This document shows positions 27,405-46,668 of a DNA stretch of 64,000 nucleotides, piece by piece (positions within the stretch are counted from its first letter, which is position 1; every line of letters begins with the position of its first letter). The position numbers and the translations under genes are program-made. The stretch is from Candidatus Peregrinibacteria bacterium. Its GTDB lineage: Bacteria > Patescibacteriota > Gracilibacteria > Peribacterales > Peribacteraceae. Below the pieces are notes generated by a model. That model was not told the origin of the DNA and did not search any database. It saw nothing but the letters and a program-made list of their open reading frames with translations. The stretch lies in contig JABGQH010000009.1 of NCBI GenBank assembly GCA_018648865.1, positions 26,142-90,141 on the forward strand, given 5' to 3'.

Positions 27405-28211
27405 TTAAAGCCTATGCAGACCAATTCTTTTAGCTGTAACAATTAATCTGTCTTTTGTTGTTCCTATAGGGAAGCACGTCATCAACTTAAGTATCTTCTC
27501 ATCCTTTTGTTGCTTTAAAATTTCAGTTTCAGAAACTGGAATTACGTAGGATTCTTGAACAATGTATGTGATTCTAACCCCATCATCTATTAGATATATT
27601 GCATCTCCTTCTTTTAATGATGGAAGCGATCTAAAAATATTTCCATATATACTTTCTGCTGCACGTTCGTCTGGAGGGCTGCTATGACCTGCAATAATTA
27701 TTGAACCCATTTCACCAGGTAAAACAGAATGAGGATATGCAACAGCTCCTTTTAGGAGTCCTATTTGCATTTGCTCTTCTAACATACCCCATTTTCTAGA
27801 CTCCCAATAAGTGATAGACGGTAGCAAAACTGGAACACGTATGTTCAAAGAGGGGATTTGCAATGTAAAGGATCTTTGTAGCCCCCATTTTTCAAGTTCA
27901 TTTTCAGTTTTAGCATTGTCTTCTTCTGAATTTATCTCTCTTGTTTCTACAGTTATATTAACTGGTGCAGACTCATGTAATTCATTTTTATCGATTTCAT
28001 CTTCTATATTAATAAGTGATGCTTCTAAACTCTTTGTCTTAACATTGGAATATTCCAAGTAGCTTAAATTTCTGTTCCAAACATTTTCTTTTGATTCATA
28101 TGTATTGGAATATGCAATATTGGCGATTGCTAATGTCCAAAGCAAAGAGGAAACAACAACAGAGATCCCCGCAGCCGTATAAGCAAATTTCCAGTTTTGT
28201 TTTTGTGTCAT
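27405..28211 (-). CDS. Sortase family protein (second sortase)
   Basis: LQIPSLNIRVPVLLPS...GEMGSIIIAGHSS...ILKLMTCFPIGTTKDRLIVTAKRI. Confidence 0.9.
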   Translation of the reverse strand: MTQKQNWKFAYTAAGISVVVSSLLWTLAIANIAYSNTYESKENVWNRNLSYLEYSNVKTKSLEASLINIEDEIDKNELHESAPVNITVETREINSEEDNAKTENELEKWGLQRSFTLQIPSLNIRVPVLLPSITYWESRKWGMLEEQMQIGLLKGAVAYPHSVLPGEMGSIIIAGHSSPPDERAAESIYGNIFRSLPSLKEGDAIYLIDDGVRITYIVQESYVIPVSETEILKQQKDEKILKLMTCFPIGTTKDRLIVTAKRIGLHRL

Positions 28212-29129: not shown

Positions 29130-30384
29130 CTTTTGCTACCTCTCTTTCATCCCAATCAACTGCTCCTCCAATTTTGTTCATTGTGCTAAATGGGCCCATG
29201 CCGCATAGAACAACTGCGTCGCCTTCTTTCGCATTTTCAAAAAGGAAGGAGATTGCCTCACTTCTGTCAAAAATCTTATACGCTTCGCATTTAGATTGAT
29301 CTATTCCATTCCACACTTCATCAAGTACTGAATGAGGATCTTCTCCGTAGGTTTCATCCTCTGTAGCAACTACGAAGTCCGCAAGATCACTACATATCTG
29401 ACCAACTATTGGTCTCTTCTCTTTCATTCTATCTCCACAGCTAGAGCAAAGAACCATTACTCTTCCGTTCCCTCCAACTATTTGTCTAAGTGTGTTTAGA
29501 GTTTTTTCGTATGCATTAGGTGAAACTGCAAAATCTACAAATACAGAGAAAGGTTGTCCTTCATCTATCATCTCCATTCTTCCTGGGATACTACTAAAAT
29601 CGCTTAATGCTTCTACAGCTTCTAAAACAGATATGCCACAAGCTTTGGCACATCCAATTGCACACAAAGCGTTTTGAATGTTGAACAGACCAGGAATTGG
29701 GATAGATAGATTGATATTTTCATCGTTATTATTAATCAATGCAGTACATTTTGTATTTGAGGCTTTAATTTCTTTTGCTTGAACATCTGCAGCCTCCTCT
29801 GTATCTGAAATTGAGATTGTTTTGCCTTTTAAAATAGAAGAGAAATATCCAAAAGATTCATCCGAAGCATTAAGTACTTTAGTTCCGTTTTTACTAAGCA
29901 TTCTAAGCAAAATTGCTTTATCTTTTATATATTGCTTCATTGAACCGTGATAATCCAAATGCTCTAGCGAAATATTGGTGATAGTTGCAATACTAGGAAA
30001 AGTCCAACTTGAACGTCCTTGTACAAGTCCATGAGAAGACATCTCTACGACTGCATGCGTGCATCCCCTTTTAACAAGTTTTCTTAGAAACTTTTGGAGA
30101 ACGAAAGGGCTTATAGATGTTAAATGCGTAGAATTTTCCTCAACTTCATCTTCTATTTGAACAAATGCTGTAGATGCTGCACCTGCTCTAATCCCATTTT
30201 TCTTTAGAATATGAGCAATCATTCCAGCAGTAGTGGTTTTACCATCTGTACCAGTTACGCCTATCACAGTTAGTTTCCTAGCAGGAAAACGGTACTTAAG
30301 TGCTGCAATCAATGCTTTAGATTGATGCCAGCCGAGTCTAAGTGGGCTCCTGTTGCCTATATATTTTTTTAAGAACTTAATCAC
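29104..30384 (-). CDS. Mur ligase family protein (MurE-like)
   Basis: VIGVTGTDGKTTTAGMIAHIL, EMSSHGLVQGR, ITNISLEHLDYHGSMKQYIKDKAIL, FVDFAVSPNAYEKTL. Confidence 0.9.
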   Translation of the reverse strand: MIKFLKKYIGNRSPLRLGWHQSKALIAALKYRFPARKLTVIGVTGTDGKTTTAGMIAHILKKNGIRAGAASTAFVQIEDEVEENSTHLTSISPFVLQKFLRKLVKRGCTHAVVEMSSHGLVQGRSSWTFPSIATITNISLEHLDYHGSMKQYIKDKAILLRMLSKNGTKVLNASDESFGYFSSILKGKTISISDTEEAADVQAKEIKASNTKCTALINNNDENINLSIPIPGLFNIQNALCAIGCAKACGISVLEAVEALSDFSSIPGRMEMIDEGQPFSVFVDFAVSPNAYEKTLNTLRQIVGGNGRVMVLCSSCGDRMKEKRPIVGQICSDLADFVVATEDETYGEDPHSVLDEVWNGIDQSKCEAYKIFDRSEAISFLFENAKEGDAVVLCGMGPFSTMNKIGGAVDWDEREVAKAKLSAMSF

Positions 30385-30766
30385 TGAGTATCATTCTACA
30401 GGCTTCTATGTCTTGCTCAATCTGGTTCTTTAGTTCTTCTGGCCCTTTAAAATTTTGTACTTCTCTTAAATATTGCATAACAGTAATAGTTATCTCTTTT
30501 GGAAGTGATTCTAGATATGAATCAAGTAGATGAATTTCACATGCTCTGGTGTCATTAAAAACAGGTCTGTCTCCGTAATGCATTACTCCAATATAAATAT
30601 TATCATCATCACAGACTTTCACTAAACAGGCATAAATCCCATCATCCATCTCTTCTGGGACAGCAGCCATATTTACGTTGATAGTTGGAATTCCGAGTTC
30701 TTTCCCGCCTCTGTCTGATCCAGTAATTGCAGAAGCTGTGAATGTTAGTGGTAGGGGAGTTGTCAT
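30377..30766 (-). CDS. Stand-alone riboflavin kinase domain protein
   Basis: GSDRGGKELGIPTINV, DDGIYACLVKV, IGVMHYGDRPVFND, EIHLLDS, LREVQNF; overlaps the Mur ligase start by 8 nt. Confidence 0.85.
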   Translation of the reverse strand: MTTPLPLTFTASAITGSDRGGKELGIPTINVNMAAVPEEMDDGIYACLVKVCDDDNIYIGVMHYGDRPVFNDTRACEIHLLDSYLESLPKEITITVMQYLREVQNFKGPEELKNQIEQDIEACRMILSD

Positions 30767-30845: not shown

Positions 30846-32525
30846 ATGAAAAAGATATGCACAAAGTGTTCGGCAGGATTTGAGATCACAGAAGAAGATA
30901 TTGATATGCTGAGTGATTTAAGTCCTGTGATTGGAGGGAAGAAATACGAAATTCCACCACCAACGCTTTGTCCTAGGTGTAGATCCAAAAGAAGGCTATC
31001 TCATGTTAACCAATTAAATTTATATGAGAGGAAATGTAATCTAACTGGAGCAAGCATTATTTCAAATATTAGACCTGAGTTGCCTTATAAGGTATATCGC
31101 CAAGAAGATTGGTACAGCGATAAGTGGGATCCATTAGATTATGGAATGAATTTTGATTTTAATAGACCATTTTTTGAACAATGGAATGAGCTTGTATTAA
31201 ATGTTCCACTCCCCAATCTATTTACAGGATATGAATTTGATGAAAATTGTGAATATACAAACCACGCAGGTAAAAATCAGAATTGTTATTTGGTTTTTGA
31301 TTCAGATGAAGACAGAGACTGCTATTACAGCTACAGCATAAATCAGTGTGTAAATTGTATGGACTGCTATCGAACTAGGAAGTCTGAATTATGTTATGAG
31401 TGTGTTGATTGTGTTAAATGTTATGAGTCTTCATTCTTACAAGATTGTAATAATTGTAGCTCTAGCATGTTTTTAAAAAACTGTACTGGATGTAAAAACT
31501 GCTTGATGTGCTCTAACATGAACAATAAAGAATATTTTGTAGAAAATAAAAAAGTTTCAAAAGAAGAGTTTGAAAACTTTAGATCATTATTGGGTTCATA
31601 TGCTTCTTTAAAGAATGCAAAAGAAAGGTTTATGAAATTAAAATTAGAGTATCCACAAAAATATATACATGGGATTCAAAACGAAGATGTAGTAGGGGAT
31701 TACCTAGTTAATTGTAAAAATGCATATATGTGCTTCGATAGCGAGGACTTATGGGATTGCAGGTATGTTTGCCAAGGTTTTATGCCTCTAAAAAATTGTA
31801 TGGATATAGATGAATGTGGAGAGGCAGAAAAGTTGTATGAGTGCACGGTTTGTGGTTACCAAATTAATTCCTGTTGCTTCTGTGACCATACATTAGGAAT
31901 GATGACTGACCTTTTATATTGTTCCCATTGCCCACATACTACAGATTCATTTGGTTGCAGAGGTGTTCAAAGAAAGGAGTACTGCATTCTAAATAAGCAA
32001 TATACAAAAGAAGAATATGAAGAATTGGTACCTAGGATTATTAATCACATGATTGAAACAGGTGAATGGGGCGAGAACTTTCCATCCACAACATCTAAAT
32101 ACGCATATAACGAGACGATGGCTCAAGATCATTATCCACTAAATAAAGAGCAGGCAGTTAAAGAAGGTTTAAATTGGCTAGATGATGAAAAGAAGATTGA
32201 TCAATACATGGGTCCAGTAAATGTATTACCAGATAATGTGAAAGATGCCCCCGATGATGTTTGTAAAAAAATCTACATTTGTGAGGAATCAGGTGAGCCA
32301 TATAAAATTATTCCTCAGGAACTTTCGTTTTATAAAGAATTAAATTTACCATTACCTAGAAAAGGTTTCTTTAAACGTAATAAGGATAGAATGAAGTTAA
32401 GAAGCCCAAGAAAATTATATGGCAGGAAATGCGAAGAGTGCGGAATTGAATTCATGACTTCTTATGCATTAGATAGAGAGGAAAAAATCTTTTGCGAATC
32501 CTGTTACCAGAAAGCTCTAATATGA
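30846..32525 (+). CDS. Cys-rich zinc-ribbon array protein, paralog 1
   Basis: CTKCSAGFEITEED...CPRCRSKRR; Cys-dense core; YCILNKQYTKEEYEELVPRIINHMIETGEWGENFP; C-terminal CEECGIEF...CESC. Confidence 0.9.
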   Translation: MKKICTKCSAGFEITEEDIDMLSDLSPVIGGKKYEIPPPTLCPRCRSKRRLSHVNQLNLYERKCNLTGASIISNIRPELPYKVYRQEDWYSDKWDPLDYGMNFDFNRPFFEQWNELVLNVPLPNLFTGYEFDENCEYTNHAGKNQNCYLVFDSDEDRDCYYSYSINQCVNCMDCYRTRKSELCYECVDCVKCYESSFLQDCNNCSSSMFLKNCTGCKNCLMCSNMNNKEYFVENKKVSKEEFENFRSLLGSYASLKNAKERFMKLKLEYPQKYIHGIQNEDVVGDYLVNCKNAYMCFDSEDLWDCRYVCQGFMPLKNCMDIDECGEAEKLYECTVCGYQINSCCFCDHTLGMMTDLLYCSHCPHTTDSFGCRGVQRKEYCILNKQYTKEEYEELVPRIINHMIETGEWGENFPSTTSKYAYNETMAQDHYPLNKEQAVKEGLNWLDDEKKIDQYMGPVNVLPDNVKDAPDDVCKKIYICEESGEPYKIIPQELSFYKELNLPLPRKGFFKRNKDRMKLRSPRKLYGRKCEECGIEFMTSYALDREEKIFCESCYQKALI

Positions 32526-34174
32526 AAAACTCTTGCAGCGAATGCTCGGCAAAATTTGAAGTAACAGATAGTGATTTAGAATTCTTTGGTAAATTTAAAT
32601 ACCCCATATCTACACCTACTCTGTGTCCGGCCTGTCGAGTACAAAGGAGGATGTCTTGGAGGAACGATAGAACTTTCTACCATCGAAAATCCTCCTTATC
32701 AAAAAAACAGATGGTATCTATTTATCCAGAAAATACCCCTTGGCCTGTATATCTACAGAGTGAGTGGTATAGCGATAAATGGAATCCTTTGGATTATGGA
32801 ATTGAATTTGATTTTAGCGTTCCATTCTTTACTCAGTTTAAAGAGCTAATGATGACAGTACCTAGACTGGGTATGGATTTAATTAATTGTGAGAACAGCG
32901 AATATTGTAATTACTGTGGTGATGATAAAAACTGTTATTTAGATATTGCAGGTGAGGCCAATGAAGATTGTTACTTCTGTTTATTTACTAAATATTCAAA
33001 AAATTGCTTAGACTGCACATTCGCTTATCATTCAACTCTGTGTCATGAATGCATACAGGTTTACAACTCATATGCATGTAGGAATTCTATGTACTTAGAT
33101 AACTGCAGTGATTGCGCATTTAGTTTCGATCTAAAAGGATGCAAGAACTGCCTACTTTCTATTAACCTTCGTAATAAAGAATATTATATTTTGAACGAAC
33201 CTCATACAAAGGAGGAATATGAAAAGAAACTTTTAGAATTAAATTTGAGTTCTAATGAAGCACTAAAAAGTGTTCATGATATTTGGAAAAAAATGAGAAT
33301 TGAAAATGGAATCTATAGAGACATGTACACCTTGAATTGTGAAGACTGCACAGGAAATAACGTTAAGACATCAAAAAATTGTCATGGATGTTACAACACA
33401 ACAGACTCAGAAGATTGTAAATATTTATATGATGTCCTAGATGCAAAGGACTGTCAGGATTTAAATTACTCACTTTATAAACCAGAGGTAGCATATGAAC
33501 TCTGTTCAACGTTAAATATGACTTATAGCGCCTTCTGCTACGCTTCTCATTACAGTAATAATTGTTTCTATTGTGATAAGACAAATCATAGTAGCAACTG
33601 TTTTGGTTGTATTGGATTAGACCATATGGAGTATTGCATTCTGAACAAGCAATATACAAAGGAAGAATACGAAGAATTGCTGCCAAGAATTATCGCATAC
33701 ATGGAAAAAACTAAAGAATGGGGACAGTTCTTTCCAGTTACACTTTCACCATATGGATATAACGAAACTGTTGCCCATGAATACATGCCACTAACTCAGA
33801 AAGAGGTAGAGAAGAATGGTTGGGTTTGGACGTTGCAAGAAGAAAAGGAAAGTTACATGGGTCCAGAAGTACAAATACCAGATACAATTTCGGATGTAAG
33901 CGATGATATTTGTAATGAGCTTATAACCTGCGATAAAAGTGGTAAGCCTTTTAAGATAATTCCACAAGAGCTTAAATTTTATCGCGAGCAGGGGATTCCA
34001 ATACCTAGGAGGTCCCCAATGCAAAGGCATACAGATAGAAATGACCTAAGAAATCCACGCAAGCTCTGGGACAGAAAATGTGATAAGTGCTCAAATGATA
34101 TTCAAACAAGTTACAGTCCAGATAGGCCAGAGAAGGTTTTTTGTGAGGAATGTTATCTAAAAGAGGTATACTAG
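32522..34174 (+). CDS. Cys-rich zinc-ribbon array protein, paralog 2
   Basis: Start MKNSCSECSAKFEV overlaps the paralog 1 stop (ATGA); same architecture; ends CEECYLKEVY. Confidence 0.9.
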   Translation: MKNSCSECSAKFEVTDSDLEFFGKFKYPISTPTLCPACRVQRRMSWRNDRTFYHRKSSLSKKQMVSIYPENTPWPVYLQSEWYSDKWNPLDYGIEFDFSVPFFTQFKELMMTVPRLGMDLINCENSEYCNYCGDDKNCYLDIAGEANEDCYFCLFTKYSKNCLDCTFAYHSTLCHECIQVYNSYACRNSMYLDNCSDCAFSFDLKGCKNCLLSINLRNKEYYILNEPHTKEEYEKKLLELNLSSNEALKSVHDIWKKMRIENGIYRDMYTLNCEDCTGNNVKTSKNCHGCYNTTDSEDCKYLYDVLDAKDCQDLNYSLYKPEVAYELCSTLNMTYSAFCYASHYSNNCFYCDKTNHSSNCFGCIGLDHMEYCILNKQYTKEEYEELLPRIIAYMEKTKEWGQFFPVTLSPYGYNETVAHEYMPLTQKEVEKNGWVWTLQEEKESYMGPEVQIPDTISDVSDDICNELITCDKSGKPFKIIPQELKFYREQGIPIPRRSPMQRHTDRNDLRNPRKLWDRKCDKCSNDIQTSYSPDRPEKVFCEECYLKEVY

Positions 34175-34180
34175 GCACCA

Positions 34181-35863
34181 ATGCAGAAAAAATGCTGTAA
34201 ATGTCCGGGATCGTTTGAAATAACTGACGAGGATTTAGTATTTTACGACAAAGTTTCACCAATAATTAATAAAAAGAAACACAGAATACCAACTCCTACT
34301 CTATGCACACCCTGTAGAGAGCAGAGGCGTTTAGCAATCCCGAATGTTAGAAACTTCTATTCTAGAGAATGTAATCTTTGTCAGAAGATGATGGTATCAG
34401 CATATGCATCCGATCAACTATTTACAGTCTATTGCCAAGAATGTTGGTGGGGTGATAAGTGGGATGAATTAACTTACGGTGTTGATGTTGATTTCTCACG
34501 TCCATTTATCGAGCAGATGCAAGAATTACAACTAAAAGTGCCACGGCTTACCTTGATGAATAAGGCTGCAGAGAACAGTGAGTTCTGTAACTACGCAGGA
34601 TTCAACAAGAATTGTTATCTAGCAATTGCTGGTTCGTGGTACAACGAAGATTGTTTATATGGAACGTGTTTCGATCACTCAAAAAACTCTGTGGATTGCT
34701 CATTTCTTTCTTACGGAGAATTGTGTTACGAATGCATCTATGGCACTAAATTATACAATTGTGTTTACTGTGTTGATTCCTCTGATTCCTCAGATTGTCT
34801 ATTTTCATTCAATTTAAGAGGTTGTAGAAATTGCATTCTAAGCAGTAATATACGTAACAAACAGTATTACATACGTAATAAGCAATGCACTAAGCAAGAA
34901 TTTGATGAAATCAGGAGTATGATTTCTAGGTACGAAATCTTCCAGAAATATCTAACAGAGTTTCACAAGTGGAGAAAAACACTCTTGCGTCCAGCTAACT
35001 ACAATATTAACTGTGAAGATTGTATCGGCGACTATCTGCGGAATTGCAAAAATGTAGTAAACGGCTTTATTGGAAATGGGGTAGAGGATGCAAAAAATGT
35101 TTTCATGGTTGAGTATTCAAAGGATTTTATGGACTGTTGTTTTGCAGGTTACGATAATGCTCAACTTTTCTATGAATGCATAGCCGCTGGTATAGGAGGG
35201 CAGCGTAATCAATTCTGTTTTCAGAATTGGTCATGCAATGACATACTTTATTGCGATACACCACAGTCATCATCAGACTGTTTCGGTTGCATTTGTATTC
35301 GCAATAAACAATTTTGTATTCTAAATAAGCAATATTCAAAGAACGAATACCAAGAGTTAGTACCAAGAATCATAGATCTTATGAAAAAACATGGAGAGTG
35401 GGGAGAGTTCTTTCCATCTAGCTATAGTCCATTCGCTTATAACGAGACATTTGCTCAAGACTACTATCCTCTAGCCAAAAAAGAAGCACTAATGAATAAT
35501 CTAAAATGGAGAGAGGACACTAATGAAATATTAAAAGTAGATCGAACTATACCTTCTAGTAATCTACCTGATTCTATCCATGACATTCCAGATGATATTC
35601 TTAATTGGGCTGTAATATGTGCAGAAACTGGTAAGCCGTACCGTATTGTAAAACAAGAACTTTACTATTATCGTTCACAGAACCTACCAGTTCCTCGATT
35701 ACACTACGATGCTCGCAATAAGCATCGCATCCAATTACACAATTTGAATAAGATACACAAAAAGCAATGCGACAAGTGCAACAAAGAAATGCATACAGTT
35801 TATTCAACTGATTGTTCTGAAACAGTTTTTTGTGAGGAATGTTATCTAAAAGAGGTATACTAG
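34181..35863 (+). CDS. Cys-rich zinc-ribbon array protein, paralog 3
   Basis: MQKKCCKCPGSFEITDEDL...CTPCREQRR...CILNKQYSKNEYQELVPRII...CEECYLKEVY. Confidence 0.9.
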   Translation: MQKKCCKCPGSFEITDEDLVFYDKVSPIINKKKHRIPTPTLCTPCREQRRLAIPNVRNFYSRECNLCQKMMVSAYASDQLFTVYCQECWWGDKWDELTYGVDVDFSRPFIEQMQELQLKVPRLTLMNKAAENSEFCNYAGFNKNCYLAIAGSWYNEDCLYGTCFDHSKNSVDCSFLSYGELCYECIYGTKLYNCVYCVDSSDSSDCLFSFNLRGCRNCILSSNIRNKQYYIRNKQCTKQEFDEIRSMISRYEIFQKYLTEFHKWRKTLLRPANYNINCEDCIGDYLRNCKNVVNGFIGNGVEDAKNVFMVEYSKDFMDCCFAGYDNAQLFYECIAAGIGGQRNQFCFQNWSCNDILYCDTPQSSSDCFGCICIRNKQFCILNKQYSKNEYQELVPRIIDLMKKHGEWGEFFPSSYSPFAYNETFAQDYYPLAKKEALMNNLKWREDTNEILKVDRTIPSSNLPDSIHDIPDDILNWAVICAETGKPYRIVKQELYYYRSQNLPVPRLHYDARNKHRIQLHNLNKIHKKQCDKCNKEMHTVYSTDCSETVFCEECYLKEVY

Positions 35864-35869
35864 GCACCA

Positions 35870-37561
35870 ATGCAGAAAAAATGTCCTAAGTGCTCGGCGT
35901 CATTTAATGTAACTGACGAGGATATTTTGCTTTTAGATAAATTATCACCAGTGATTAATTCCAAAAAGCATAGTCTGCCAGCTCCTACATTATGTTTTAG
36001 CTGCAGATTACAAAGGAGGCTAGCGTTCTATAATTCTAGATCGATTTATCCTAGGAAATGCGATCTAACAGGAAAAAACATTGTATCTATTTATTCACCG
36101 GATAAGCCATACAAAGTTTACGAGAGAAGAGAATGGTATGGGGATAACTGGGATCCATTTGAATATGGCAGAGATTTTGATTTTAATAGACCTTTCTTTG
36201 ATCAATTCAAAGAATTACTAGATTCGGTTCCACATCTTTCTTTAACAGTACTAGGAGAGACTGTTAATAGTGAATTCACTAATGACAATTTGATAGTAAA
36301 AAATTGTTATCTAATATTCGACGGAGAGAGAGCAGAGGATTGTATGTATGGTCATACATTTGTTGGTATCACTTCATGTTTAGATTTTGCAGCAGCGGTA
36401 GATTGTGAACTCTGCTATGAAACGATCCATTGCAATAATTGTTATAACTGCAAATACAGTAGATATTCTACAAATTGTAGTGATAGTTGGTTTATTAGGG
36501 ACTGCATAGGATGTAAGAACTGTTTTGGATGTGCTAATTTGAGGCAAAAACAATATTGCATATTTAATGAACAAAAAACAAAAGAGGAATACGAGAAATA
36601 CTTAGAACAATTCGATTCAACCTCGTATAAAACTGTTCAGGATATGATTAATAAAACAAATGAGTTCTTTCTGAAATATCCTGTAAAAGAATGTAGAGGA
36701 GAACAGAATGTTGATGTCACAGGGAATAATCTAAATCAATCAAAGGATTCAAAAGACTGCTTTGACTGCAACAAAGTACAGGACTGCCATTACTGCACAA
36801 ATTGCTTGGTAGGAGCAAAGGACTGCAGTGATATACATATATGGGGAGACAGCATGGAGCTCTGTTATGAAAGCTGCGTAATTGGTGTAAAGACTCAAAA
36901 CTTATTGGGCTGTTATTATGTGTCACAAGGTGCAGACAACATACTCTATTCTATGTATTGCAGCAGAAGTGTAAAAAACCTATTTGGTTGCATAGGGTTA
37001 CGGCATAAGAGCAATTGTATTTTCAACAAACAATATTCAGCAGAAGAGTATGAAGATCTAGCTGAAAGAATCGTTGAGCATATGAAGAAGACTGGAGAAT
37101 GGGGGGAGTTCTTTCCATCTTCTATATCTGGCTTTGGTTATAACGAAACAATGGCTCAGACATTCTTTCCCTTAGAAAAAGACGATGCAAAGAAGCTTGG
37201 CTATTCATGGAGTGAATACCAATCTCCTGTAGAGGCAGATCGTACGATTGATGCTTCAAAGTTGCCAGATAGTACAAATGACATCCCAGACGATGTTTTG
37301 AACTGGGCCATCGTATGCACAGATACAGGAAAGCCTTTTAAAATAATTAGGAAGGAACTTGAGTTTTATAGAGATCATAAATTGCCGATTCCTCGTAAGC
37401 ACCCAGACCAAAGGCATTACGATAGATTTGCTATTAAAAATCCATATCACCTTTGGGATAGATCATGCGATAAATGTTCTAAAGAAATTAAAACAACATA
37501 CGCACCAGAAAGGCCAGAAACAATTTTCTGTGAAGAATGCTATCTAAAAGAGGTATACTAA
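35870..37561 (+). CDS. Cys-rich zinc-ribbon array protein, paralog 4
   Basis: MQKKCPKCSASFNVTDEDI...CFSCRLQRR...CIFNKQYSAEEYEDLAERIVEHMKKTGEWGEFFP...CEECYLKEVY. Confidence 0.9.
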   Translation: MQKKCPKCSASFNVTDEDILLLDKLSPVINSKKHSLPAPTLCFSCRLQRRLAFYNSRSIYPRKCDLTGKNIVSIYSPDKPYKVYERREWYGDNWDPFEYGRDFDFNRPFFDQFKELLDSVPHLSLTVLGETVNSEFTNDNLIVKNCYLIFDGERAEDCMYGHTFVGITSCLDFAAAVDCELCYETIHCNNCYNCKYSRYSTNCSDSWFIRDCIGCKNCFGCANLRQKQYCIFNEQKTKEEYEKYLEQFDSTSYKTVQDMINKTNEFFLKYPVKECRGEQNVDVTGNNLNQSKDSKDCFDCNKVQDCHYCTNCLVGAKDCSDIHIWGDSMELCYESCVIGVKTQNLLGCYYVSQGADNILYSMYCSRSVKNLFGCIGLRHKSNCIFNKQYSAEEYEDLAERIVEHMKKTGEWGEFFPSSISGFGYNETMAQTFFPLEKDDAKKLGYSWSEYQSPVEADRTIDASKLPDSTNDIPDDVLNWAIVCTDTGKPFKIIRKELEFYRDHKLPIPRKHPDQRHYDRFAIKNPYHLWDRSCDKCSKEIKTTYAPERPETIFCEECYLKEVY

Positions 37562-37567
37562 CTGCCA

Positions 37568-39247
37568 ATGCAGCAAACCTGCGAAAAGTGTTCGGCAATG
37601 TTTGAAGTCACAGAAGGGGATTTAGAGTATTACGATGAAATATCGCCTATATTTAACGGAAAGAAATACTTAATACCTCCTCCTGTTCAGTGCCCTGAAT
37701 GTCGCTTTCAGAGGAGGTTAATATTTAGAAATGAAAGAAAATTATATAAAAGAAAATCAGATGTTTCAGGAAAACAAATAGTAAGTATGTTTGCTCCAGA
37801 TAATCCACATAAAACATGTACACAGGACGAGTGGCTTAGTAATGATTTTGACGCAATGCAGTTTAGTAGAGATTTTGATTTTGATAGTCCATTTTTCGAT
37901 CAGCTAAAGGAGTTGAATATTGATGTACCGCATCCTGGTTTAAATAATACAAATGTAGAAAATAGCGAATTCACAAACTTTGCACTAAATCAGAAAAATT
38001 GTTATCTGATATTTGGAGCAGGGGATAATGAGGATTGTATATATGGAAAGTTCATTGTCTCTTCTAACAATGTTGTAGACAATTTGTCGTTATACTCCTG
38101 CGAATTTTGTTACGAAGGAGTGTCGTCTCAAAATTGTTATGAATGTACATATTTCAAAAATTGTCATAATTGTGCAAATTGCATGATGGTAGAAGACTGC
38201 AGTTCATGCAAAAACTGTTTAATGTGCTTTGGGTTAAGGAACAAGGAATATTGCATATTGAATGAGCAATTATCTAAAGAAGAATATGAAAACAGGAGAA
38301 GCAAGATTGATCCTTTAACTAATAAGAAGATTTTGGAGATGCAATTTGAATTAGATAAGTTAAAAGAAAACATTCCTCATATTGATTCTCATATATACGC
38401 GAGTGAAGATTGCACTGGTGAAACTATTTATAACAGTAAGGGGTGTCATAATTGCTTTGATATTAAGAATTGTGAGGATTGTAAATATACATCTTATACT
38501 CCGAATGGCGTTGCCTCTTACGACTCCACATTTACTGCTCCGGATGGTGTTAGGTGGTGCAATAATGTTATTTCTGCAATTGGACACAGGTGCATGGGTA
38601 CTTTCTTATGTTGGTATACAAACGATGTTTATTACTCAATTAATTGCAGGAATTGTGACTTCTGTTTTGGATGTGTTGGATTACAGAATCAAAAATATTG
38701 TATTTTCAACAAGCAATACTCAAGAGATGAGTATGAAGTCATTGTTCCTAAGATAATCAAAAAAATGGAATCTGCAGGAGAATGGGGGCATTTCTTGCCT
38801 CCAGAACTTTCACATTTTGCATATAACGAGACAATTGCTAACGAATATTTTCCTCTTCTAAAAAAAGAAGTTGAAAAGAGGGGATTTAGGTGGAGAGAAG
38901 AAGATGAAGTTATTCCAGATGTAGAAAAGATAATTCCTGCTAGTCAGCTTCCACCATCAATATCAGATATTCCGGACGATATATTAAATTGGGCTGTTAA
39001 ATGTGAAATAACAGGAAGACCATTTAGAATTATAAAACCAGAATTGAATTACTACAGAAAAATGGGTCTTCCAATTCCTCATGTTCATCCAGATGAAAGG
39101 CATAATATAAGACTTAGGAAAAAGAATCCTTACAAGCTATGGCAATGTAAGTGTGCAAACTGCTCCAAGGAAATTAAAACAACCTACGCACCAGAAAGGC
39201 CTGAAACAGTTTTTTGTGAAGATTGCTATCTAAAAGAGGTATACTAA
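37568..39247 (+). CDS. Cys-rich zinc-ribbon array protein, paralog 5
   Basis: MQQTCEKCSAMFEVTEGDL...CPECRFQRR...YCIFNKQYSRDEYEVIVPKIIKKM...CEDCYLKEVY. Confidence 0.9.
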   Translation: MQQTCEKCSAMFEVTEGDLEYYDEISPIFNGKKYLIPPPVQCPECRFQRRLIFRNERKLYKRKSDVSGKQIVSMFAPDNPHKTCTQDEWLSNDFDAMQFSRDFDFDSPFFDQLKELNIDVPHPGLNNTNVENSEFTNFALNQKNCYLIFGAGDNEDCIYGKFIVSSNNVVDNLSLYSCEFCYEGVSSQNCYECTYFKNCHNCANCMMVEDCSSCKNCLMCFGLRNKEYCILNEQLSKEEYENRRSKIDPLTNKKILEMQFELDKLKENIPHIDSHIYASEDCTGETIYNSKGCHNCFDIKNCEDCKYTSYTPNGVASYDSTFTAPDGVRWCNNVISAIGHRCMGTFLCWYTNDVYYSINCRNCDFCFGCVGLQNQKYCIFNKQYSRDEYEVIVPKIIKKMESAGEWGHFLPPELSHFAYNETIANEYFPLLKKEVEKRGFRWREEDEVIPDVEKIIPASQLPPSISDIPDDILNWAVKCEITGRPFRIIKPELNYYRKMGLPIPHVHPDERHNIRLRKKNPYKLWQCKCANCSKEIKTTYAPERPETVFCEDCYLKEVY

Positions 39248-39253
39248 TCACCA

Positions 39254-40939
39254 ATGCAGAAAACTTGTACTAAATGTTCGGCTCCGTTCGAGGTAACCGA
39301 TGATGATATTAAATTTTACGAGAATGTTTCCCCTATTATAAAAGGAGAAAAGTATATTATTACTCCTCCTAAATATTGCCCTGATTGCAGATTACAGAGG
39401 AAGGTTTGCTTTCGAAATGAACGCATGTTTTATAGTCGAAAAAGTGATTTAACAGGAGATATGATGGTTTCCATATATGCTCCAGATATTCCATACAAGA
39501 TATATGATCAAGAAGAATGGTGGAGCAAGAAGTGGGATGCCAGAGACTATGGACGTGAATTTGATTTTACAAGACCATTTTTTGATCAAATGAATGACCT
39601 ATGGAAGGAGGTTCCAATAGTTACATTATGGAATTCAAACTGCGAGAATGCCACATATAACAATAACTGCTTCCATTTGAAGGATAGTTATATGAATTAC
39701 AACAGTGACGAAGGAGAGAGAATTATGTATTCATATGGAACGGAATTCTGCACTGATTCTGCTGATTGTACATTCGTACAAAAATCTGAACTTTGTTATG
39801 AATGTACCGATTGTACGAGAGCATATACATGTATATTTTCTAGTCTTTTGGATAACTGCACAGACTGCTCATTCAGTTCAGACTTGATGGGATGTAAGAA
39901 TTGTTTTGGCTGCCATGGACTTAGACAACAAAGTTATTGTTTCTTTAATGAACATCTCTCAAAAGATGAGTGGGAAGATCGTATGAAATCTATTAGTTAT
40001 ACACCACAAAATATAAGTAAATATAAAAAACAATCTGAAGAAGTGCGTATGAAGGTGCCACAAGTTGCTACAAAAATGGTGCAGTGTTCGGACAGTACAG
40101 GAAACTTTTTATATAACTGTGCCAATTCTGAAAATTGTTTTGATATGCATAATTGCGAATTTGTTAAGAATGGAATTTACGTTCCTTGGGACGTAAAACA
40201 TGCGCAAGATGTATACGCACATGCTGGAGCAGAATGGAGTTACGAAGTAATTGCAGGGGGAATAGGAATTTCACATGTTGCATTTATAAATGGTTTAGTT
40301 AGTGGCCTAAGTGATAGTTACTATTCAGTCCAATGCGGATACGGATCTAATAATCTATTTGGATGTGTAAGTATGATGAAATATAAATATTGCATTTTAA
40401 ATAAGCAGTACACAAAAGAAGAATACGAAGAGCTTGTGCCTCGTGTCATAGAACACATGAAAAAGAATGGAGAATGGGGAGAATTCTTTCCCCCTAGTAT
40501 TAGTCCATTTGCGTATAACGAAACAATGGCACAGGAATTCTTCCCTCTAACAAAAGAAGAAGCTCTTAATCAAGGATATAAATGGAGAGATATACAAGAT
40601 GAACTGCCAAAATCTGACAGAGTGATTTCTTCAGATAAGTTGCCACCATCAATCGAAGATATTCCTGACGACATCCTAAATTGGGCAATTAAATGTGAAG
40701 TTAGTGGGAGACTTTATAAAATTACATCTCAAGAATTGGATTTTTACCGTCGCATGAAATTACCGGTTCCGAGATTGCATTACGAGAAGCGCTATCAAAA
40801 CAGGGCAAAAAGTCGACCTCCACGCAAGCTTTGGAATCGCAAATGTAACAAGTGTGATATTGATATACAGACAGTCTATTCACCTGATAGGCCAGAGAAA
40901 GTTTTTTGTGAAGATTGCTATTTAAAAGAGGTATACTAA
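39254..40939 (+). CDS. Cys-rich zinc-ribbon array protein, paralog 6
   Basis: MQKTCTKCSAPFEVTDDDI...CPDCRLQRK...YCILNKQYTKEEYEELVPRVIEHMKKNGEWGEFFP...CEDCYLKEVY. Confidence 0.9.
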   Translation: MQKTCTKCSAPFEVTDDDIKFYENVSPIIKGEKYIITPPKYCPDCRLQRKVCFRNERMFYSRKSDLTGDMMVSIYAPDIPYKIYDQEEWWSKKWDARDYGREFDFTRPFFDQMNDLWKEVPIVTLWNSNCENATYNNNCFHLKDSYMNYNSDEGERIMYSYGTEFCTDSADCTFVQKSELCYECTDCTRAYTCIFSSLLDNCTDCSFSSDLMGCKNCFGCHGLRQQSYCFFNEHLSKDEWEDRMKSISYTPQNISKYKKQSEEVRMKVPQVATKMVQCSDSTGNFLYNCANSENCFDMHNCEFVKNGIYVPWDVKHAQDVYAHAGAEWSYEVIAGGIGISHVAFINGLVSGLSDSYYSVQCGYGSNNLFGCVSMMKYKYCILNKQYTKEEYEELVPRVIEHMKKNGEWGEFFPPSISPFAYNETMAQEFFPLTKEEALNQGYKWRDIQDELPKSDRVISSDKLPPSIEDIPDDILNWAIKCEVSGRLYKITSQELDFYRRMKLPVPRLHYEKRYQNRAKSRPPRKLWNRKCNKCDIDIQTVYSPDRPEKVFCEDCYLKEVY

Positions 40940-40945
40940 ATACCA

Positions 40946-42610
40946 ATGCAGAATTGTATTTCATGTAACGTTTCATTCGAAGATAGTCAGGCAGAGATAT
41001 CTTTAAGAGCAAAGATTGGCGATGCTATACAAAAAGGTGATTTGCCAGAGCCAAAGCTATGTTGTGACTGCAGATTAATTCAACTAATGAGTTGGAGGAA
41101 TGAACGCATTCTATATACGAGAATGTGTGATAAGAGTGGCAAAAAGATAATCTCTGTTTATCCGCAAAATGTAGCTTTCCCTGTTTATGAAAAATCTATT
41201 TGGTGGGGAGACAGTTGGAACGCCACAAACTATGGCCAGGATTATGATTTTAATAGACCATTCTTTGAGCAGTTTGCAGAATTACAAAGAAATACTCCTC
41301 GTGCGTCATTAAATACAAAGAATGTTGAGAATTGCGATTATTGTAATTTTACGTTTGATTCAAAAGATAGTTACTTAACAACGTGTTGTTATTACTCAGA
41401 ATCAATTCTATACAGTTTTTGGATGCTTGAGTGCAAAGATTGTACTGAATGTAGTTATTGTTTTCAGTGTCAGAACTGTTTGCAGTGCACTGACTGCAAT
41501 AAATCATATGGTTGCTATGAGTGTGTGCAATGCAATGTTTGCACTGATAGTTCGTACTTATTTGATTGTCGTGGTTGTACAGACTGTTTTTGTAGTGTCG
41601 GATTAAGAAATGCTAAATATCACATGTTTAATGAGAAATTATCTAAAGAAGAATTTGAAAATAGAATGAAAGAATTTGATTTGCAAAATCCAGTACATGT
41701 AGAAAAGGTAAAAGAACGATTAGATGCTTTAAAATTAAAACACCCACACAAATATTCTGTGCAGGAAAAGTGTGAAGACTCAACGGGGGACCATATAGTA
41801 GAATTAAAAGACTGCAAAAATTGCTATCAGACATTTAGATCCAGAGATTGTATAAATGTAACAGACGCGGACGGAAACAATGATTTGCTTGATTGCTATC
41901 ATACTGGTTGGTCAGAAATGATATATGAAGGATATTCACCAGTTAGACTTAGGAACTCTGCATTTGAGGTACAATGCTGGGATGGCAATGACATCTTCTA
42001 TTCAGATACATGCCAGAATTGCTCATATTGCTTTGGGTGTATTAGCTTGCGACAAAATAAATATTGCATATTGAATAAACAATATTCAAAAGAAGAATAT
42101 GAAGTAATGCTCTATAAAATAATTAATCATATGAAATCTACAGGTGAGTGGGGGAAATTCTTTCCAAATGAAATTTGTATATTTTCTTATAACGATTCTG
42201 TGGCTCAGGATGTATATCCTCTAGAAAAAGAGGAAGCAATTAAACGAGGATGGAAATGGCAAGATAATCTCCCATTTACTATGGGAAAGGAAACTACAAC
42301 TTGGAATAGCTATGAAATGAAGATTGAAAAGGTGCAAGAAGATATATTAAATGAGATATTTGCCTGTGAATGTTGTAAAAAGAATTATCGTATAATTAGA
42401 TCTGAACTCAAGTTTTATAAACAAATGAAGTTACCATTATCTAGGCTTTGTTCAGGATGTAGACACTTAGAAAGGATCAAGACCAGAAATCCAAGAAATT
42501 TACATAACAGAACATGTAATAAATGTAATAAGGAAATTCAAACCACTTTTGCACCAGAAAGACCAGAAAAGGTTTACTGCGAGGAATGTTATTTGAAAGA
42601 GGTTTATTGA
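40946..42610 (+). CDS. Cys-rich zinc-ribbon array protein, paralog 7
   Basis: MQNCISCNVSFED...CCDCRLIQL; extra intact ribbon CECC...CSGCRHLERIK; ends CEECYLKEVY, TGA stop. Confidence 0.9.
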   Translation: MQNCISCNVSFEDSQAEISLRAKIGDAIQKGDLPEPKLCCDCRLIQLMSWRNERILYTRMCDKSGKKIISVYPQNVAFPVYEKSIWWGDSWNATNYGQDYDFNRPFFEQFAELQRNTPRASLNTKNVENCDYCNFTFDSKDSYLTTCCYYSESILYSFWMLECKDCTECSYCFQCQNCLQCTDCNKSYGCYECVQCNVCTDSSYLFDCRGCTDCFCSVGLRNAKYHMFNEKLSKEEFENRMKEFDLQNPVHVEKVKERLDALKLKHPHKYSVQEKCEDSTGDHIVELKDCKNCYQTFRSRDCINVTDADGNNDLLDCYHTGWSEMIYEGYSPVRLRNSAFEVQCWDGNDIFYSDTCQNCSYCFGCISLRQNKYCILNKQYSKEEYEVMLYKIINHMKSTGEWGKFFPNEICIFSYNDSVAQDVYPLEKEEAIKRGWKWQDNLPFTMGKETTTWNSYEMKIEKVQEDILNEIFACECCKKNYRIIRSELKFYKQMKLPLSRLCSGCRHLERIKTRNPRNLHNRTCNKCNKEIQTTFAPERPEKVYCEECYLKEVY

Positions 42611-42652
42611 TTCTTATACGTAATATCAATTTGCTGTTATTATATTTAAGTA

Positions 42653-44320
42653 ATGCAAAAAACATGTAACCAGTGTTCAACTTCATATGAAATATATGAT
42701 GATGACAAAGCGCTTCTACATAAAATTTCGCCTACAATTGGTGGTAGAAAATTTGAAATACCAGTATCGGATATTTGCCCAGAATGTAGGCAGCAACGTA
42801 GAATGTCCTTTAGAAACGAAAGGAAGCTGTATCGCAGGAAATGTGATGTTACAGGCAAGGATATCATTTCTATATTCTCTTCGGACTCTCTTTTTAAGGT
42901 ATGTGATAAGGATTACTGGTATAGCGATAAATTTGATCCCTTGGAATATGGCAGAGACTATGATTTTAATAGGCCATTCTTTGAGCAATTCAAGGATTTG
43001 TCATTAACAATCCCTATGCCATCTATGCGCGTGGAAAGGTCAGAGAATTGTGATTTTAACAATGACATGGGGGATTGTAAGAACTGTTACTTGTGTGCAC
43101 GAACACATCAGTCACAGGATCTTATATACACATACAGAGGCAACAGATCATCTAGTTCAATAGATTGCACTCAGATAACCAGATCAGAGATTCTTTATGA
43201 ATGTGTTGATTGTGTTAAGTGCTACAACTGTAAATATTCATTCTTTTGTAGTGAATGTACAGATTGTTCTTTTCTACTTGATTGTAGGAGTTGCATGTCC
43301 TGCTTTATGTGTACAAATCTTAGGAGTAAACAGTATTGTTTCTTAAATGAGCAACTAACCAAAGAAGAGTACGAGAAAAGACTTTCAGAATTTAATTTTG
43401 GTTCTTATGACCATGTTCAAAGAGCTTACAAAATGTACGCAGATATAAAAAAGAAAGCCATCCGTAGGAATCTTATAAAAGTAAATGCAAACAACTCAAC
43501 AGGCGACAATTTAATAGACTGTAATAATTGCCATATGTGCTTTAGCACTCAGTTTACAGAGGACGGTAGGTATCTGTGGGATGTTAAGGATTACAAGGAT
43601 TCAATGGATGCATATAGCGGAGGAAGAAATAGTGAGCTTATGTACTACACAACTGCAGGGGCTGCTTCGTATAGTGTTCAGTTTTGCTTTAGGACATCTG
43701 GATGTAATGATGTTTTGTATTCGTTCTATATTAATACATCTAAAAACATATTTGGATCTATCGGTTTAAAAAGGGGAAACTTTTGCATTCTAAACAAGGA
43801 ATATACAGAAGATGAATATAACGATCTGATGCCAAAGATTATTGATCATATGATCAGCACTGGTGAGTGGGGCAAGTTCTTTCCGTCTTCCCTTTGTCCA
43901 TTTGCTTATAATGAAACTGTTGCTGACGAATTCTTTCCCCTAGATAAGGGAAGAGCTAACGATTTAGGATATAGGTGGAAAGAAGATGATCCAAAGGATT
44001 TTATGCCTCAAACATATAACATTCCAAATAACATTTCTGATGTTAAGGATGATATTTTAAATGAGGTTTTGGCATGTGATACATGTAATAAGAATTACAA
44101 GATAGTTCCTGCTGAACTTAAGTTTTATAGAAATCATAATCTAGCTATTCCTAGGTACTGCATCGATTGCAGACATATGAGGAGAAATAAAACAAAGAAC
44201 CCAATGAGAATTAGAAAAGACATTTGCAAGAAATGTAATTCAGAAATGGATACTACATATCCAGAAGGAACAGATATGCAGATAATTTGTGATGATTGCT
44301 ATCTAAAAGAGGTTTATTAA
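42653..44320 (+). CDS. Cys-rich zinc-ribbon array protein, paralog 8
   Basis: MQKTCNQCSTSYEIYDDD...CPECRQQRR; extra intact ribbon CDTC...CIDCRHMRRNK; ends CDDCYLKEVY. Confidence 0.9.
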   Translation: MQKTCNQCSTSYEIYDDDKALLHKISPTIGGRKFEIPVSDICPECRQQRRMSFRNERKLYRRKCDVTGKDIISIFSSDSLFKVCDKDYWYSDKFDPLEYGRDYDFNRPFFEQFKDLSLTIPMPSMRVERSENCDFNNDMGDCKNCYLCARTHQSQDLIYTYRGNRSSSSIDCTQITRSEILYECVDCVKCYNCKYSFFCSECTDCSFLLDCRSCMSCFMCTNLRSKQYCFLNEQLTKEEYEKRLSEFNFGSYDHVQRAYKMYADIKKKAIRRNLIKVNANNSTGDNLIDCNNCHMCFSTQFTEDGRYLWDVKDYKDSMDAYSGGRNSELMYYTTAGAASYSVQFCFRTSGCNDVLYSFYINTSKNIFGSIGLKRGNFCILNKEYTEDEYNDLMPKIIDHMISTGEWGKFFPSSLCPFAYNETVADEFFPLDKGRANDLGYRWKEDDPKDFMPQTYNIPNNISDVKDDILNEVLACDTCNKNYKIVPAELKFYRNHNLAIPRYCIDCRHMRRNKTKNPMRIRKDICKKCNSEMDTTYPEGTDMQIICDDCYLKEVY

Positions 44321-44427: not shown

Positions 44428-46668
44428 TTGATGGCGCTTTCTTATTTGCATATCGTTATTCCACAGGGAAACCCAAATTCTCCTAAGTTAGAATCAAAAT
44501 GGCAGGAGTTGTTAATTGCTCTAAGAAATACGATTACAGGTGAAAGGTTTTCATTTGAGTATTTTGGAAACGAACAATATACATATTTTTATGTAGTTTC
44601 TAAAAAGAAGTACCAAGGAACCATAGAGGGTCGAATATACTCTTCGTTCCCAGATGCAGAAATATATGAAGTAAGTGATTACACTAGCAAGTTTAATCCA
44701 GAAAAAAGTGGATTTGCTGGGACACAGGTATCTCTATCAGAAAAAGATGTTTATCCAACTAGAACATACGAACAATTTGAGGAAGACAGCATGGCACCAT
44801 TCTTTTCAGTGGTTTCTAAGATAGAAAGTGGTGAGCAAGTTTGGACTCAAATAATTGTAGAGCCGCATGACGATACAGGTAGATATCATTTAAGAAGGAA
44901 TTTTAGGTATTGGCTGGTTAGAATGAAAAAGTTCTTTTCTGTGCGGGATAGATTAAGGAAGGAAGGATTGAAGGGAATAAATGCAGTAAGATTTGATATG
45001 GCAAAAGATAAAGAAAAAACAAAACCATTCAAGGTAAGTATCAGATGTTGCTACATTGCGAAAGATTCAGAAATAGCAAAAAGAAAGCTCCGCTCTGTAG
45101 TTAATAGCTTTTATCAATTCAATGATTCAGATATTAATTCATTTGAATCTTCTAGGTACTCAACTTCCGATAAATTCATTGATAATTACAAAAACAGAAA
45201 GCACGCAAAGACATTCATATTAAGTGCTAAGGAATGTGCAACCATATATCACTTACCAAATGCGGACTTTACTCCACATATAGTTCATGTACTTGCTCGC
45301 AAATCAGATCCTCCTAGAGATCTACCAAGAAAAGGAGAGAAAGAAGTAAGTGCTTTTGGTGTTACCAATTACCATAACAACTTTGTTCCATTTGGTATAA
45401 AGAGAGAGGACAGAAGGAGACATTTGTATTGTGTAGGTAAGTCTGGATCTGGAAAAAGTAAATTATTGGAACTATTGATTAATACAGACATAAAAGATGG
45501 TCACGGTGTTGCTGTCTTGGATCCTCATGGTGATTTAGTAGATGCAATACTTAAGCTAATCCCAGAGGAAAGGAAAGATGATGTAGTTTTGTTAGATCCA
45601 GGTGATATAGATTTTCCAATTGCGTTTAACCCACTTCAACAAGTTGATGAGGCATACAAAATGCAATTAACAATTGGATTCTTAGATATTTTCAAGAAGC
45701 TATTTGGAGATAACTGGACATATAGATTGGAGCACGTGCTTAGATATACAACTCTAGCTTTGTTAGACAGCCCTAATACTACAGTCTTAAGCATACTTAA
45801 GATGCTTACAGACAAGAACTACAGACAAAAGATTGTTTCTAGGATCAACGATAATGTTGTTAAGAGTTTCTGGGTTAGCGAGTTTGCTGCATGGAGTGAA
45901 AAGTACGATGCTGAAGCAATTACACCACTGCTAAATAAAGTTGGGCAATTAGTAGCAACAAACATGGTTAGGAACGTAATTGGTCAGCCAGAAACAAAGT
46001 TTGATATCAGAGAGATAATGGACAACAAGAAAATACTTCTTATGAAAGTATCCAAGGGACTACTCGGAGAAGAAAACTCAGCTCTAGTAGGATCAATGAT
46101 TATCACAAAGATGTATCAGGCTGCAATGAGTAGGGCAGATACTGCAGAGGCAGATAGACCTGATTTCTACTTTTATGTAGATGAGTTCCAGAACTTTGCC
46201 ACAGACACATTTTATGAAATCTTATCTGAAGCTAGAAAGTATCATCTTAATTTAACAATCGCTCATCAATATATGGGACAGTTGAGTGATAAGATTAGGC
46301 AAACAGTATTCGGTAATGTTGGTTCTATGATTAGCTTCCGTGTTGGAGCAGAGGATGCAAAGATTCTATCAGAGGAGTACAGTCCTATCTTTAACGAGCG
46401 CGATATTATTAATCTTGGTGTACGTGAGTTCTACACAAAGATGTCCATAGATGGAGAAATTAGAGAAGCTTTCTCTGGCAGAACCATGGATGCTCCAGTT
46501 CCTACAAATGATATATCTAAAGAAATAAGAGAATTATCTCGAAAGAAATATTGTGAACCAAAAGCAAATGTAGAAGTAATGTTAAAGAAATGGGATGAAG
46601 CAGCTTCTGCAGAAGCAACAGAAGAAGAAATGGCAGTAGAAGAAAAGTTTGAGGAGCCAATATTGTAA
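44428..46668 (+). CDS. Type IV secretion/conjugation-type ATPase (TraG/VirD4-like, DUF87/TraM-recognition)
   Basis: LYCVGKSGSGKSKLLELLINTD, GHGVAVLDPHGDLVD, FYFYVDEFQNFATDTFYEILSEARKYHLNLTIAHQY. Confidence 0.9.
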   Translation: MMALSYLHIVIPQGNPNSPKLESKWQELLIALRNTITGERFSFEYFGNEQYTYFYVVSKKKYQGTIEGRIYSSFPDAEIYEVSDYTSKFNPEKSGFAGTQVSLSEKDVYPTRTYEQFEEDSMAPFFSVVSKIESGEQVWTQIIVEPHDDTGRYHLRRNFRYWLVRMKKFFSVRDRLRKEGLKGINAVRFDMAKDKEKTKPFKVSIRCCYIAKDSEIAKRKLRSVVNSFYQFNDSDINSFESSRYSTSDKFIDNYKNRKHAKTFILSAKECATIYHLPNADFTPHIVHVLARKSDPPRDLPRKGEKEVSAFGVTNYHNNFVPFGIKREDRRRHLYCVGKSGSGKSKLLELLINTDIKDGHGVAVLDPHGDLVDAILKLIPEERKDDVVLLDPGDIDFPIAFNPLQQVDEAYKMQLTIGFLDIFKKLFGDNWTYRLEHVLRYTTLALLDSPNTTVLSILKMLTDKNYRQKIVSRINDNVVKSFWVSEFAAWSEKYDAEAITPLLNKVGQLVATNMVRNVIGQPETKFDIREIMDNKKILLMKVSKGLLGEENSALVGSMIITKMYQAAMSRADTAEADRPDFYFYVDEFQNFATDTFYEILSEARKYHLNLTIAHQYMGQLSDKIRQTVFGNVGSMISFRVGAEDAKILSEEYSPIFNERDIINLGVREFYTKMSIDGEIREAFSGRTMDAPVPTNDISKEIRELSRKKYCEPKANVEVMLKKWDEAASAEATEEEMAVEEKFEEPIL

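Follow-up and report, generated by a model that had tools for sequence, protein, structure and literature searches.

The window analysed here is a stretch of 64,000 nucleotides from a Candidatus Peregrinibacteria bacterium (assembly GCA_018648865.1, contig JABGQH010000009.1, positions 26,142 to 90,141). At 30846-44320 of the window, on the plus strand, it contains an array of eight back-to-back intact open reading frames (ORFs), with intergenic gaps of -4 to 42 bp. The array proteins, called Z1 to Z8 in the following, are 550-563 amino acids long, have 31-47 cysteines (Cys) apiece and are pairwise 35-44% identical. They are predicted to be built of two Cys-lined beta-solenoids between zinc modules, and their family appears to have a partner of its own, a VirD4/TraG/HerA-like ATPase whose gene begins 107 bp downstream of the array. 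The functional unit is larger than the array and runs past 44320, up to the end of the ATPase gene at 46668. The anatomy of the proteins and their association with the ATPase are solid; the mechanism is what we infer from them, and our preference, a tentative one, goes to a many-parts, one-motor system of Patescibacteria in which many specificity subunits would be served by one shared soluble motor.

An earlier, sequence-only reading of the window had described eight consecutive same-strand ORFs of 550-563 amino acids with a set of shared motifs, and all of these are present. It missed the partner ATPase, two internal duplications, the TrmB-type regulators of related arrays, and the constraint on the core between orthologues. 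Each array protein has the same order of domains: a zinc module, solenoid A, solenoid B, a cap, and further zinc modules. In a profile comparison built on 288 full-length family members, the two halves of the core are homologous to each other (Z4 residues 126-250 against 276-403, hhalign E 6e-36), and so are the N-terminal module (Z4 1-75) and the C-terminal module (474-563; hhalign E 6e-25). Likeness to known domains is confined to the protein ends, which resemble zf_Tbcl and zf_Tbcl_2. The C-terminus of Z7 scores above the Pfam cut-off for zf_Tbcl_2 (29.5 against 27 bits); among the remaining seven proteins, five match a zinc model below its cut-off and three have no match of the zf_Tbcl type. 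The Cys of the zinc modules are 94-100% conserved across the 288 members. Both ends look like treble-clef zinc modules, and zinc occupancy is predicted for them. The terminal CxxC pairs had already been taken for zinc sites, which agrees with these matches; the N-terminal zinc ribbon of the earlier description holds as a zinc module, but its type is the zf_Tbcl-like treble clef and not a generic ribbon. The earlier proposal of an undescribed, diversified family is supported. No full-length match to the array proteins was found in Pfam, NCBIfam, PADLOC or PDB, and the non-terminal regions have no match in NCBIfam, PADLOC or PDB. Judged by hydropathy only, Z1-Z8 have neither signal peptides nor membrane segments.

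The Cys-dense core is, on sequence periodicity and structure models, two homologous beta-solenoids with predicted coils of 12 residues. In its first half, pairs of Cys spaced 3, 6, 9, 12 and so on residues apart occur at 3-4 times expectation with a maximum at 12, and pairs at spacings that are not multiples of three at about 0.1 of expectation. The second half has the same periodicity at short range, with the register lost beyond about 15 residues. In solenoid A, 95.6% of the Cys share one every-third-residue register, and the inward positions of this register are 50% Cys, 16% Ser and 9% Leu family-wide. As an example, residues 144-227 of Z4 split into seven such coils. There are about 27 core Cys per protein, and coils often have Cys at all four inward positions. 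An AlphaFold2 model of the core alone has a predicted local distance difference test score (pLDDT) of 95-98, with strands roughly every 12 residues; the full-length model of Z4 reaches a pLDDT of 88 and a predicted template modelling score of 0.90, with the core at 70-80. When the core is searched with Foldseek, the top matches are mostly beta-solenoids (MfpA, QnrB1, AlbG), none of them significant (E 0.03 or worse), and structure searches including Foldseek give no match to a known enzyme or fold. No 5-residue periodicity of Cys, of D/N or of Y/F is seen in the core, nor a Pfam pentapeptide match. Since the every-third-residue register corresponds to the inward lattice of a beta-solenoid, the core Cys would chiefly be interior residues, some of which might also ligate metal. 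The interpretation of the core as paired zinc knuckles is rejected on the strictness of this register.

The partner ATPase has a motor core that matches PF10412 and PF12696 (TrwB/TraG) above cut-off, and relatives of it stand next to the family in 35 loci. Genomes with two or more strong hits to the family were counted as array-bearing, and ATPases as clade members with at least 51% identity over the full length or as a contig-edge fragment (G017). On this basis, the full-length clade is present in 25 of the 27 relatives that have an array and in 0 of the 32 that have none (Fisher p 1e-14), and one of the two exceptions, G026, has an ATPase fragment at a contig end. A second genome set of the same class gives 11 of 11 against 0 of 6. 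In other classes, full-length relatives of 42-44% identity stand beside the family in G071 and G330; the f90 genomes have just shorter relatives of about 500 amino acids, and the pairing there is less clear. The array-linked ATPases form one group in the tree, separate from the ubiquitous paralogues, and in the tested genomes this group is found only together with the family, with one gene per genome even where arrays sit at several places. The first 250 residues of the ATPase have a maximum 19-residue hydropathy of 0.57, that is, no N-terminal membrane anchor; by the same measure five of the ubiquitous paralogues reach 2.0-3.0 and others 1.2-1.6. In PADLOC it has only weak matches, at the superfamily level, to HerA and mad8. 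Judging by these comparisons the association is solid, and the ATPase appears to be a dedicated, obligate-looking partner of the family.

The source genome, a Patescibacteria assembly of 1.13 Mb that is 99.97% complete, has only these eight full-length copies, plus one ORF of 122 amino acids with C-terminal-type zinc modules, in which both zf_Tbcl and zf_Tbcl_2 are recognised. Its close named relatives are Peribacteria and Peregrinibacteria. Intact members of the family are present in 27 of the 59 relatives and in 32 of 384 genomes phylum-wide, the family having spread into other Patescibacteria classes beyond the close relatives. Copy number ranges from 0 to 24 or more, gene order is shuffled between genomes, and congeners differ by entire arrays (10 copies in G421 and none in G005; three in G018 and none in G364). 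Z1-Z8 do not group as one clade. Other genomes have close relatives, with good support, of Z1 (up to 68% identity), Z2, Z4, Z5, Z6 and Z8, and of Z3 and Z7 distant ones only. Orthologues of Z1 are frequently the lead gene of arrays elsewhere. The array is made up of eight old subfamilies and did not arise by expansion on the spot; recent tandem duplication is rejected, as most of them group with proteins of other genera and the gene order is shuffled.

The same proteins can look variable or constrained depending on the comparison. Between paralogues, outward core residues are about 33% identical, against about 50% in the ends, and cores are no more similar within one genome than across genomes; between orthologues, core conservation equals or exceeds that of the ends. 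For 14 orthologue pairs from two congeneric genomes (G013 and G414), the ratio of nonsynonymous to synonymous substitution rates (dN/dS) is about 0.09 overall. The two halves of the core have values of 0.039 and 0.049, the N-terminal part 0.117, the cap 0.132 and the C-terminal part 0.082, all of them approximate in absolute terms since dS is near 0.8-1.1. Accelerated amino acid change in the variable part is absent, the core having the lowest dN/dS of all parts. Because the core varies most across paralogues yet least across orthologues, each paralogue is seen to keep its own conserved core, that is, a fixed specificity under purifying selection instead of an arms race. The strong core divergence noted earlier is real between paralogues only; when orthologues are compared, no other part is as conserved as the core. 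Assembly artefact and pseudogenes are rejected as explanations, the family being intact in other genomes with the low overall dN/dS just given; neither an artefact nor a structural match to a known enzyme, the two outcomes of which the sequence-only reading was wary, is what is found. The last 33 residues are more similar within genomes than between them. Gene conversion that homogenises the ends is clear for these residues only and absent in the source genome, and no main argument is built on it. A phage or mobile origin is rejected as well, with one partial match of 38 residues at a contig end among 2.9 million viral contigs; a tblastn search of the array proteins against 50,697 phage records gave no match.

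Variant forms of the architecture are found in some genomes. At 7291-8625 of L042, a core-only ORF (query positions about 108-410) is followed by a separate ORF for the C-terminal zinc part, and the N-terminal module is missing; G119, G323 and G349 have this same split form. In G253 (G253:C19:9079-9948) an ORF of 306 amino acids consists of a pair of core units and lacks the zinc ends; it may be a form that is ancestral or reduced. The family appears fragmented under the standard code in L063, L111 and L114 (Gracilibacteria and SR1 contigs), as is expected if UGA stands for glycine, and it crosses a change of genetic code. The family also turns up on contigs that bear the label delta proteobacterium, Micrarchaeota or Nitrospirota (L050, L096, L101, L105); these members are probably misbinned Patescibacteria sequence.

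A binding or recognition repertoire, as proposed before, remains the best reading of the array. Each array protein would be an adaptor, presumably cytosolic, whose two Cys-lined solenoids may give its subfamily a fixed binding specificity of its own, and the common ends and cap would be docking parts that hand the bound ligand to the ATPase. The ATPase would act as a single soluble hexameric motor of the VirD4/HerA type encoded beside the array, and in many relatives TrmB-type regulators may switch separate operons. Adaptors that feed a shared ATPase are suggested because there is one motor for many conserved specificities, with common ends and no export signal. A more specific form, which is doubtful, is a new kind of intracellular machine in host-dependent bacteria, made of up to two dozen Cys-lined adaptors of fixed specificity and one soluble VirD4-derived motor, that recognises or moves foreign or host-derived molecules. 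Several observations weigh against the adaptor model. The co-occurrence count ignores kinship, the genomes being non-independent samples without phylogenetic weighting, and physical linkage may explain a part of it, but dispersed copies in G323, G349 and G119 speak against its explaining the whole. G056, the other exception, has two family members without the partner ATPase, G041 has only partial relatives, and no TrmB regulator was detected in the source genome at E 1e-6.

It is unlikely that the array proteins are instead an effector repertoire exported by Patescibacterial type IV secretion (T4SS), with the ATPase as coupling protein and the C-terminal zinc module as recruitment signal. The ATPase does lie within the VirD4/TraD coupling family, and Patescibacteria are epibionts in which T4SS are widespread and VirD4 homologues number in the thousands; most of these homologues are not near virB4 and may have been co-opted (PMC12102498). 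The greater likeness of the last 33 residues within genomes is also what a shared signal would give. However, coupling proteins normally have an N-terminal membrane anchor, which is missing from the array-linked ATPases, no T4SS channel or relaxase genes are recognised among the recurrent array neighbours (T4SS were not examined genome-wide), and the core, with a dN/dS of 0.04-0.05, has a low value for proteins that act as effectors in a conflict.

A role in intracellular defence or recognition is also unlikely; here every paralogue would detect a conserved foreign structure of its own and then activate or direct the HerA-like motor that all of them share. TrmB regulation is atypical of defence, the array proteins have no PADLOC match and no recognisable nuclease or other effector domain, and defence genes are not among the recurrent array neighbours. 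What such a role would explain is the presence or absence of whole arrays between the congeners named above, the range of copy numbers with shuffled gene order, the weak similarity of the ATPase to HerA and mad8, and the combination of a single motor with many conserved specificities. A metal or thiol store, with Cu(I), Zn or Fe-S bound in the solenoids and paralogues that differ in capacity, is improbable. The number of core Cys, with coils often filled at all four inward positions, and the treble-clef ends, which imply reduced thiols, fit a store, but inward Cys are freely swapped for Ser, Leu or Val, as would be more natural for packing than for ligation, orthologues keep their outward faces strongly conserved too (dN/dS 0.047), for which a simple store would have no need, and no metal transporter or metal regulator recurs beside the arrays. 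Arms-race or antigenic diversification of the core, suggested by a core identity of about 0.3 between paralogues where the ends have about 0.5, is already contradicted and highly improbable, given that purifying selection between orthologues is strongest in the core, that in most subfamilies the window proteins have their nearest relatives in other genera, and that within-genome paralogue cores are no closer than between-genome ones.

The features of the locus are listed in the table.

Table. Features of the array locus; positions are those of the window, and parts of Z4 are given as the coding sequence for the named residues (res).
Feature	Position	Strand	Description
Riboflavin kinase, divergent upstream neighbour	30377..30766	-	outside the system
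Z1, array protein 1	30846..32525	+	559 aa
Z2, array protein 2	32522..34174	+	550 aa; ATG overlaps Z1 stop
Last codons of array gene, LKEVY-stop, CTAAAAGAGGTATACTAG	34157..34174	+	contain ribosome-binding site of next gene
Z3, array protein 3	34181..35863	+	560 aa
Z4, array protein 4	35870..37561	+	563 aa
Z4 N-terminal module, res 1-125	35870..36244	+	treble clef C5,C8/C42,C45, then WYxDxWDPxxYG..FDFxRPFF block
Z4 solenoid A, res 144-227	36299..36550	+	seven predicted 12-residue coils
Z4 solenoid B, res 281-380	36710..37009	+	homologous to solenoid A
Z4 cap, res 381-465	37010..37264	+	YCILNKQYTKEEYEEL..TGEWGEFFP..YNET
Z4 C-terminal module, res 466-563	37265..37558	+	zf_Tbcl-like plus zf_Tbcl_2-like predicted zinc modules
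Z5, array protein 5	37568..39247	+	559 aa
Z6, array protein 6	39254..40939	+	561 aa
Z7, array protein 7	40946..42610	+	554 aa, 47 Cys
Z8, array protein 8	42653..44320	+	555 aa
VirD4/TraG/HerA-like ATPase, apparent dedicated partner	44428..46668	+	746 aa, no transmembrane segment

The likeliest start of Z2 is the ATG at 32522, which overlaps the Z1 stop codon and yields the length in the table. For genes 3-7 the ribosome-binding site lies within the final codons of the preceding gene (AAAGAGGTATAC, coding for KEVY), at 34157-34174 and at the corresponding ends of Z3-Z6. Because the KEVY codons carry the ribosome-binding site of the next gene, the conservation of the C-terminus may in part be translational rather than at the protein level. 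A scan for promoters and terminators stayed at or under shuffle expectation and was uninformative. TrmB-type regulators are found in 41 loci, mostly divergent from an array operon, and in the window the riboflavin kinase gene occupies the slot where many relatives have such a regulator. Two array-less genomes (G011 and G023) have short TrmB fragments that share 84-96% identity with array regulators and are probably what is left of former arrays. Elsewhere in the window there are two sortases on the minus strand (257-1519 and 27405-28211), near an SLH/Calx-beta protein (14058-15482) and a PKD protein (23871-25847), which suggests sortase-anchored surface proteins.

Patescibacteria have genomes of about 1 Mb, and since some of them give up to two dozen or more genes of about 1.7 kb each to this family, it must be worth its cost. 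The finding links a single clade of VirD4-like ATPases, which are abundant in Patescibacteria (PMC12102498), to a consistent partner, and describes a tightly wound, Cys-lined solenoid with predicted 12-residue coils in bacteria. It also corrects a natural misreading, in which CxxC-dense cores are taken as zinc knuckles. The adaptor model predicts that the conserved ends bind the ATPase and that the cores bind differing ligands.

Going by the libraries searched, the family is undescribed, and no description of it was found in the open-access literature. PADLOC gives no match for the array proteins. A profile match of the solenoid A region to the phage family PHROG 15341 (E 2e-6 in Z1, six of the eight proteins) could reflect Cys-rich composition. 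The nearest known relatives of the ends are zf_Tbcl (PF13451) and zf_Tbcl_2 (PF23477 / TIGR04272), with Cys pairs and motifs in common; most array copies fall under the curated cut-offs, however, and here the modules flank two predicted solenoids. The partner ATPase and the abundant VirD4 homologues of Patescibacteria, of the VirD4/TraD coupling type, are paralogues; the array-linked clade differs in being separate and without a membrane anchor. Compared by description, the large extracellular proteins of Candidatus Peribacter are likewise Cys-rich, clustered and of the same lineage; they average 1,655 amino acids (PMC4736985) and most have signal peptides, unlike the array proteins with about 560 amino acids and none. 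Pentapeptide-repeat solenoids (MfpA, QnrB1, AlbG) belong to the same broad beta-solenoid class and are among the nearest by Foldseek, but at E 0.03 or worse and template modelling scores below 0.3, and their faces have five residues where those of the array core have three. In the coil itself the core resembles the beetle antifreeze protein TmAFP (1EZG), a beta-helix of 12 residues per coil with every third residue inward, Cys included, as in the core; the inward and outward residue pattern of its coil is described in PMC8038014. The profile match between the two is weak (E 2.1), and the array core has neither significant homology to TmAFP nor the TCT ice-binding rows in its coils. The array proteins differ further in being cytosolic-looking, without a signal peptide, and in having Cys at four inward positions, not two. 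The core and TmAFP are read as sharing the same geometry rather than common descent.
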